From contig NZ_FNNA01000001.1 in the NCBI RefSeq assembly GCF_900106665.1, positions 1,240,001 through 1,304,000 on the forward strand: DNA of 64,000 nucleotides. The letters run 5' to 3'. This document shows, piece after piece, positions 42,036-44,123 of the stretch; the stretch's first letter is position 1; every line of letters starts with the position of its first letter. The position numbers were made by a program, and so were the translations under genes. The notes beneath the pieces were generated by a model. That model saw only the letters and a list, made by a program, of their open reading frames with translations, had not been told where the DNA came from and ran no database searches. This stretch comes from Paracoccus sanguinis (GTDB lineage: Bacteria > Pseudomonadota > Alphaproteobacteria > Rhodobacterales > Rhodobacteraceae).

Positions 42036-44123
42036 ATGAAGACCCCAGCGCATTCTGCCAGGACGTCGCTTCTGGCGTCTGCGGCATTGGCCTTGGTGCT
42101 CGGCGCCGGGATGGCAGTGGCCCAGACGGCCGCGCCCGCACCCGCCGATGCCACGGCCGCCGCGCCCGCTGCGACTGCCCCTGCTGCGACCGCCCCCGCC
42201 GCAACCGCGCCTGCGGCCGACGCCGCGGCACCGGCGGCGAACGACAACGCGGCCCCTGCCGCGGACGCCGCCCCCGCCGCGGATGCGGCCCCTGCTGCGG
42301 ACGCCGCCCCGGCTGCGGATGCCGCTCCGGCTGCCGATGACAGCGACCCGAACGCCGTGTCCGGCCCGCGCGCCGGCGCCGACACCAAGGTCGAGATCGC
42401 CCCCAGCTCGGCGGGCGCCGAAAAGACCACCGCCGACCAGGCCGCCCAGAAGGGCGAGGTCGCCGACCACACCTCGAAGCCGCAGGACCAGTACCAGCCG
42501 GCCCTGACCACGCTGGCCCAGGAACAGGTCGCCGCGCCCGGCACCGTGGACGGCGTCCCCTCGATGACCGAGGACGAGTTCAACCAGGCCAACAAGATCT
42601 ATTTCGAGCGCTGCGCGGGCTGCCACGGCGTGCTGCGCAAGGGCGCGACCGGCAAGCCGCTGACCCCCGACATCACCCGCGAGCTGGGCTTCGACTACCT
42701 CAAGTCCTTCATCACCTACGGCTCGCCGGCCGGGATGCCCAACTGGGGTACCTCGGGCGACCTGACCGAGGCGCAGGTCGACCTGATGGCGAAATACGTC
42801 ATGCAGGACCCGGCCAGCCCGCCCGAGTTCGGGATGCCGGAGATGAAGGAGACCTGGAAGCTCATCGTCAAGCCCGAGGACCGGCCGAAGCAGAAAGAGA
42901 ACGACTGGGACCTCGAGAACCTGTTCTCGGTCACGCTGCGTGACGCGGGCCAGATCGCGCTGATCGACGGCGGCACCTACGAGATCAAGGCCGTGCTCGA
43001 CACCGGCTACGCCGTCCACATCAGCCGGATGTCGGCCTCGGGCCGCTATCTGCTGGTCATCGGCCGCGACGCCAAGGTCGACATGATCGACCTGTGGATG
43101 AAGGAACCGGCGGTCGTCGCCGAGATCAAGGTCGGCTCGGAAGCGCGCTCGGTCGAGACCTCGAAGATGGAAGGCTGGGAGGACAAGTACGTCATCGCCG
43201 GCTCGTACTGGCCGCCGCAGTACGTGATCATGGACGGCGCGACGCTCGAGCCGCTCAAGATCGAATCGACCCGCGGGATGATCTACGACGAGCAGACCTA
43301 TCACCCCGAACCGCGGGTGGCGGCGATCCTGTCGAGCCACTACCGGCCCGAGTTCATCGTCAACGTCAAGGAAACCGGCAAGATCCTGCTGGTGGACTAC
43401 ACTGACATCAAGAACCTCAAGACCACCGAGATCGAGGCCGAGCGGTTCCTGCATGACGGCGGCCTGGACAGCACCCACCGCTATTTCATCACCGCGGCGA
43501 ACGCGCGCCACAAGCTGGTCGTCATCGACACCAAGGAAGGCAAGCTCGAGACCGTGGTGGACACCGGCGGGCAGACGCCCCACCCGGGCCGCGGCGCGAA
43601 CTTCGTGCACCCGACCTTCGGGCCGGTCTGGGCGACCTCGCACCTCGGCGACGACAGCGTGGCGCTGATCGGCACCGACCCCGAGGGCCACAAGGACCAG
43701 GCCTGGAAGATCGTCGACAGCTTCCCGGCGCTCGGGGGCGGCTCGCTGTTCATCAAGACCTATCCGGGGTCGAACCACCTCTATGTGGACGCGCCGCTGA
43801 ACCCCGAGGCGGACATCTCGGGTTCGGTCGCGGTGTTCGAGATCGACAAGATGAAGGGCGACGGGTCCGACCCCGAGTTCAAGACCCTGCCGATCGCCGA
43901 ATGGGCCGAGATCGCCGATGGCCAGCCGCGCGTCGTCCAGGGCGAGTTCAACAAGGACGGGACCGAGATCTGGTTCTCGGTCTGGAACGCCAAGGACAAG
44001 GAATCGGCCATCGTCGTGGTGGACGACAAGACGCTCGAGCTGAAGAAGGTCATCAAGGACCCGCGGCTGGTCACGCCGACCGGCAAGTTCAACGTCAAGA
44101 ACACCATGGGCGACATCTACTGA
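42036..44123 (+). CDS. nirS: Cytochrome cd1 nitrite reductase with long Ala/Pro N-terminal insert
   Basis: This 695-residue periplasmic enzyme reduces nitrite to NO. A signal peptide (to about residue 30) is followed by a low-complexity Ala/Pro/Asp region (31-105), then the heme c domain with CAGCH at 193-197, and the eight-bladed d1-heme propeller from about 250. The N-terminal ligand positions of the Paracoccus enzyme seem kept: His145 and Tyr153, eight apart as in His17/Tyr25. Active-site His residues appear in YAVHISR and [20 protein letters not shown]. Family members are usually near 600 residues, so about 100 are extra. GGAG precedes the ATG. Confidence 0.97.
42171..42338 (+). repeat. 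Tandem 15-bp and 18-bp repeats encoding Ala/Pro linker of NirS
   Basis: Three 15-bp units encoding ATAPA (from 42171) are followed by four 18-bp units encoding AADAAP (42261-42332) and a partial unit. The DNA copies differ mainly at third positions, so the array is old or under codon drift, but its period still allows slippage. Confidence 0.85.

Follow-up and report, generated by a model that had tools for sequence, protein, structure and literature searches.

The window, the 64-kb stretch of DNA analysed here, contains an ORF at 42036-44123 on the forward strand which, according to ORF calling and translation, encodes a protein of 695 aa. This protein is a cytochrome cd1 nitrite reductase (NirS): Pfam profile PF02239 matches its d1 propeller over positions 1-368 of 368 (E 7.5e-153), PF13442 matches its cytochrome c domain, where the CxxCH motif is present as CAGCH (residues 193-197), and the gene stands in a nir operon context. 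Residues 141-695 align with the Paracoccus pantotrophus enzyme (PDB 1dy7) with 1071 bits, and residues 147-695 are homologous to Pseudomonas aeruginosa NirS (PDB 1nir, 5guw). The Pfam and PDB matches place the c domain and the d1 propeller together at 42528..44123 (+).

Downstream of nirS lie, in this order, three ORFs that resemble, and that we take to be, nirE, nirC and nirF; the annotated products of P. aminovorans occur in an order matching that of the window nir genes. Upstream, between nirS and a divergent nirI-like gene, the sequence TTAACCGAAGTCAA (41962..41975, +) is presumably an FNR/NNR-type box. It is the sole exact match in the 64 kb, against 0.01 expected by chance.

Anatomy of the N-terminal extension

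The window NirS exceeds the 596-aa P. denitrificans/P. versutus type by 99 aa, and the long Ala/Pro-rich insert reported in a preliminary description of this DNA is real: some 99 additional residues separate the signal peptide from the arm that carries H145 and Y153. From the cleavage site to the ligand His there are 115 residues in this protein versus 16 in the 596-aa type, which accounts for the whole 99-residue excess. The Sec-type signal peptide (residues 1-29; 42036..42122, +) ends in AVA|Q, as indicated by an alignment of 21 Paracoccus NirS, and PDB numbering implies a mature start at this junction. The ligand His bears number 46 in the 596-aa Paracoccus precursors and number 17 in the P. 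pantotrophus PDB chain; therefore, the mature chain begins at residue 30, the Gln after Ala29. The A29|Q30 junction of the short form is also present in the window NirS, and in the length table an Ala|Gln junction is found at 29/30 or 33/34 in this protein and 11 module-bearing relatives. Because the window NirS shares its cleavage site with the short form, we predict that the leader is kept: a cut at A29|Q30 would leave the entire extension on the mature enzyme.

The alignment with NirS homologs that had been suggested earlier maps the insert to residues 30-142 and divides it into two unlike parts. Residues 30-103 (42123..42344, +) form a low-complexity Ala/Pro/Asp/Thr tract of variable length in relatives, with arrays of 15-bp and 18-bp periods detected by TRF at 42160-42214 and 42252-42339 and AF2 pLDDT block means of 30-36. 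Residues 104-142 (42345..42461, +) form a conserved module with a fixed length of 39 residues. Thus, the ATAPA and AADAAP repeats assigned previously to residues 31-105 are present, but the low-complexity sequence ends at residue 103, and what follows is the module.

Next comes the switchable arm (42462..42527, +), with H145 (42468-42470), the heme c ligand, and Y153 (42492-42494), the heme d1 ligand. In the alignment with PDB 1dy7 these residues coincide with H17 and Y25 and are likewise eight residues apart; the spacing claimed for them is therefore confirmed and the arm, as judged from its aligned ligands, appears to be intact and of the P. pantotrophus type. In another Paracoccus NirS of the sample (L146, genome G015), the equivalent of His17 is apparently missing from the N-terminal arm.

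The Ala/Pro tract and its genomic setting

The tract is 74 residues long in the window NirS and ranges from 17 to 93 residues among the module-bearing relatives. This length behaviour suggests weak constraint on the tract, which is not alignable. Ala/Pro tracts, defined as 40-mers in which Ala+Pro makes up at least 60% and Pro occurs at least four times, were searched in 464 kb sampled from this genome (the window plus 400 kb), in which a crude codon-usage caller yielded 327 genes. Such a 40-mer occurs in 11 of the 327 called genes, and NirS is in the top three, the best 40-mer of its tract having 80% A+P, which 3 of the 327 attain; the tract is thus conspicuous even against the Ala-rich background of this genome. 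In this genome a YceI-like protein (L135:375-1103, -) and a DsbA-like thioredoxin (L140:11130-11903, +) have Ala/Pro leaders directly behind the signal peptide, and a 2-oxoacid dehydrogenase acyltransferase has an Ala/Pro stretch ahead of its catalytic domain.

The window NirF (45349-46668, +), whose tract likewise comes after a signal peptide, also belongs here, with 78 residues, largely Ala/Pro/Ser, ahead of the shared GTGDLG motif, where the 16 other Paracoccus loci in which NirF is readable have 22-54; the NirF leader of locus L010 (54 residues) is also Ala/Pro-rich and that of L018 (37 residues) mildly so. Another Paracoccus NirS, from locus L107, has an Ala/Pro tract of about 40 residues without the module, apparently an independent expansion. 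As similar tracts recur in the same genome and the L107 tract stands without the module, the Ala/Pro tract by itself is ordinary for this genome. The idea that it is special to NirS or to this species does not hold, given the YceI-like, DsbA-like and NirF leaders and the free variation in length.

Conservation of the 39-residue module

The module has the pattern N-x-V-x-GP-x-AG-x2-T-x-V-x3-P-x-S-x-GA. No indel was found in it in 15 aligned sequences, nor in 17 loci, and a count that starts at the conserved Asn and stops just ahead of Asp/Glu-His gives 38 residues in 17 of 17 module loci. Twelve of its 39 columns are invariant in the 15 sequences (N3, V5, G7, P8, A10, G11, T14, V16, P20, S22, G24 and A25); locus L099, which is outside the 15, has Val instead of A10. 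The copy in the window is among the more divergent, with PSSAGA versus PRSEGA in 10 of the 15.

The dN/dS ratios were obtained from all pairs of the 15 module genes with JC correction, and the ranges given are the 5-95% limits of a codon bootstrap, in which codons and not lineages were resampled. The ratio is 0.40 (0.27-0.58) for the whole module, 0.32 (0.18-0.50) for its first 25 codons and 0.53 (0.29-0.90), a wide range, for the last 14. In the same genes the signal peptide has a ratio of 0.29 (0.18-0.42) and the arm one of 0.18 (0.07-0.29), so that the values for the whole module and its first 25 codons lie below 1 and close to that of the signal peptide. Silent divergence in the module is sufficient for this purpose (pS 0.46). 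The uncorrected pN/pS is 0.24 in the catalytic core versus 0.52 in the module. The module is thus constrained, though less than the enzyme, and this segment, missed by the preliminary description, is the part of the extension where selection is measurable and was found. Among PDB sequences no relative of the module was detected up to E 10, and no description of the extension was seen among the papers listed in literature searches that covered mostly open-access journals and few of the subscription ones.

Distribution and origin of the module

The loci compared were gathered from named records (78), from a plasmid of P. aminovorans (one copy) and from the 101 Paracoccus genomes sampled (30), and these sets overlap; the 78 were seeded by exact peptides of the window NirS, which favours near relatives. 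Rows below 60% core identity, most of them gammaproteobacterial, were excluded from the length comparison, the 21-sequence alignment and the first core tree. L085 and L086 were excluded as having no usable frame; L053 and L054, which have no H-x7-Y, are outside the length table, yet were included in the module scan. A suspected fusion, a 1149-residue open frame in genome G021, proved to be merely an upstream open frame.

A match to a query spanning the module to the c domain identified NirS in 37 of the 101 sampled Paracoccus genomes, and the module is present in 16 of these 37, the window's genome being included in both counts. In a module profile search of the 101 genomes there were 17 strong loci in 16 genomes, one genome having two. 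The 16 loci that were read, one per genome, are all NirS, and the 17th is a second NirS-type match of the same genome; the other 15 matches listed are all partial, with E of at least 0.0019. Paracoccus fontiphilus MVW-1 has two nirS genes (L012 and L016), on different contigs, and both include the module. Matches elsewhere, whether in different proteins or outside the genus, were weak and partial and were taken as chance.

Outside Paracoccus, the module motif was found in 0 of 34 NirS among the 55 collected rows with at least 60% identity. In a family-wide sample of 295 genomes (294 genera), an uncounted share of them NirS-bearing and at most 25 candidates being scored per genome, the window gave the sole full module match. 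The preliminary description had regarded the insert as peculiar unless it proved to be common among NirS proteins, and both sides of this are partly true: the module is frequent in NirS-bearing Paracoccus (16/37) but absent from the non-Paracoccus rows (0/34), and it is confined to some Paracoccus among the collected rows. The window enzyme is an ordinary cytochrome cd1 bearing a clade-level N-terminal variant.

In trees of the catalytic part the module-bearing sequences are clustered, and two changes are needed to explain the pattern. P. xiamenensis and P. sp. S1E-3, which have no module, group with the window and P. sphaerophysae in the first core tree (support 87/98), which suggests that the module was lost in them. 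The second core tree leaves out L096, L099, L106, L107, L111 and L113, probably because a single strand or a single motif was used to collect its loci. In this tree the P. xiamenensis part and the forks inside the module group are not resolved, and the AU test goes marginally against an arrangement of the module sequences in one clade (p 0.047). We prefer one gain with loss; transfer or two gains are possible.

Structure prediction and candidate partners

AF2 models were obtained for the window protein (52 sequences) and for P. solventivorans NirS (65 sequences). In both runs the pLDDT of the leader is mostly below 50 and a short helix is predicted at the end of the module, at residues 132-140 in the window NirS and 75-83 in P. 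solventivorans NirS. The models suggest that the leader is disordered, but these low scores are weak evidence of disorder, because some segments of the arm and the c domain that are folded in crystal structures score poorly as well.

The comparison of gene presence among Paracoccus genomes identified no denitrification partner of the module. Pseudoazurin (TIGR02375) was over the cut-off in 8 of 16 NirS genomes with the module versus 12 of 21 without it, and was rejected as a linked partner. Cytochrome c550 (NF045773) had no match over the cut-off in any of the 101 genomes and is thus uninformative on a link with the module. When 15 module rows were compared to the 5 nearest non-module rows, two positions from residue 150 on (441 and 608) tracked the presence of the module, so that nothing points to a dedicated docking surface on NirS itself.

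Discussion

The cd1 enzymes of P. pantotrophus and P. denitrificans (PDB 1dy7, 1aof and 1qks) share with the window NirS the domains, the heme ligands, the spacing of the arm and the signal-peptide junction, but have 16 rather than 115 residues ahead of the ligand His and neither tract nor module. P. aeruginosa NirS differs in its shorter N-terminus, which is reported to be involved when the subunits swap domains (PMC6872814). Outside the cd1 family, the exported Neisseria proteins Laz and Lip are reported to have an N-terminal domain of Ala/Pro/acidic repeats, and Laz is also a redox protein (PMC9239064, PMC6277709). Unlike the window NirS, these are lipoproteins in which the repeat serines are implicated as glycan sites, whereas the leader described here has no lipobox and one Ser, at the tract end. 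Cytochrome cy of Rhodobacter capsulatus resembles it in having a long linker N-terminal to a c-type heme domain, reported to be unresolved by cryo-EM (PMC7876108). That linker, however, hangs on a retained N-terminal transmembrane helix, whereas the signal peptide of the window NirS is predicted to be cut off, its junction being identical to that of the short form, whose PDB chain starts right after it.

The anatomy, the distribution and the conservation of this extension are shown by the comparisons above; its retention, its disorder and the weak constraint on the tract are inferred. We propose, with a probability of about 0.6, that a standard cd1 enzyme bears here a disordered, retained leader made of a weakly constrained spacer and a selected short segment, perhaps used for docking. 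The leader would stay on the mature periplasmic enzyme after the cut at A29|Q30. The Ala/Pro/Asp tract would be a flexible spacer with little constraint on its sequence, changing in length probably by in-frame expansion and loss of repeats. The first 25 residues of the module would probably serve as a linear docking element, binding either to NirS itself or to a denitrification partner such as NirF, NirN or NorC, at a position adjoining the point where the ligand-switching arm exits the c domain, and the last 14 would probably replace the small helix at the N-terminus of P. pantotrophus NirS. As the module lies just ahead of where this helix would be, we favour a docking element carried by a passive spacer, with the reservation that neither a partner (pseudoazurin being unlinked) nor a corresponding surface change in the enzyme came to light. 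Docking as such is the speculative part of the proposal, to which we give tentative credence, somewhat short of an even chance. The absence of the module in close relatives such as P. xiamenensis counts against it and indicates that the enzyme can work without the module.

A different view is that tract and module alike result from near-neutral low-complexity drift in an Ala/Pro-tolerant, GC-rich genome, the module having been kept by recent common ancestry only. The 11 called genes (of 327) with Ala/Pro tracts, the 78 residues ahead of the shared NirF motif where 16 other Paracoccus loci have 22-54, the L107 tract without a module and the dN/dS of the last 14 codons (0.53, 0.29-0.90) are all in line with this. 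However, a dN/dS of 0.40 (bootstrap 0.27-0.58) for the module, at a pS of 0.46 that is enough to detect constraint, and 17 loci without an indel in the module next to a tract varying five-fold make drift unlikely, if still a serious contender. Unstructured Ala-rich leaders are usually accessible to proteases, and the leader might be trimmed after export and be without function in the mature protein. If the module were always removed, its conservation would be difficult to account for, unless it acted beforehand, and we consider trimming of this kind improbable. Anchoring of the enzyme to the membrane or to the cell surface, the latter suggested in the preliminary description, has parallels in the 69-residue linker of R. 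capsulatus cytochrome cy (PMC7876108) and in the AAEAP-repeat domains of the lipoproteins Laz and Lip (PMC9239064). In the window NirS, on reading its sequence, there is no lipobox Cys, the first Cys being residue 193, the leader has no second hydrophobic segment, and the AxA|Q junction is as ordinary as in the short form. A tether is therefore not indicated and seems highly improbable.

The retained leader with a selected segment that we favour leaves two candidate sites of docking. The module might dock on the enzyme itself, holding or guiding the arm in the His17/Met106 and Tyr25 ligand switch. Its position directly ahead of the arm with fixed spacing agrees with such a role, as does the predicted helicity of its C-terminal part, similar to the N-terminal segment reported for P. 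pantotrophus (PMC6872814), but only two positions after residue 150 track the module and AF2 gives it no confident structure, and we regard self-docking as distinctly unlikely. Alternatively, it could be a short linear docking element on an Ala/Pro spacer, bringing the cd1 enzymes of this Paracoccus group to a specific partner, NO reductase or the proteins of heme d1 insertion, a possibility that we would entertain while thinking it doubtful. The extra N-terminal helix of P. pantotrophus NirS is said to clash with the NorC interface if placed in the P. aeruginosa complex, and a transient NirS-cNOR interaction and a membrane affinity are reported in the same source (PMC6872814). P. aeruginosa NirS has also been reported to enter a membrane assembly via NirF (PMC5658584).

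The Ala/Pro stretch, which first drew attention to this protein, is the less interesting half of the extension, and the conserved module is the testable half. The cd1 enzyme of the P. pantotrophus structures comes from the same genus and is a short form, and nearly half (16/37) of the sampled NirS-bearing Paracoccus carry a further, conserved segment beside the arm. If the module docks a partner, the pairs of long and short forms, together with the module-less P. xiamenensis group, would offer a comparison for studying how NirS and NO reductase meet in the periplasm.
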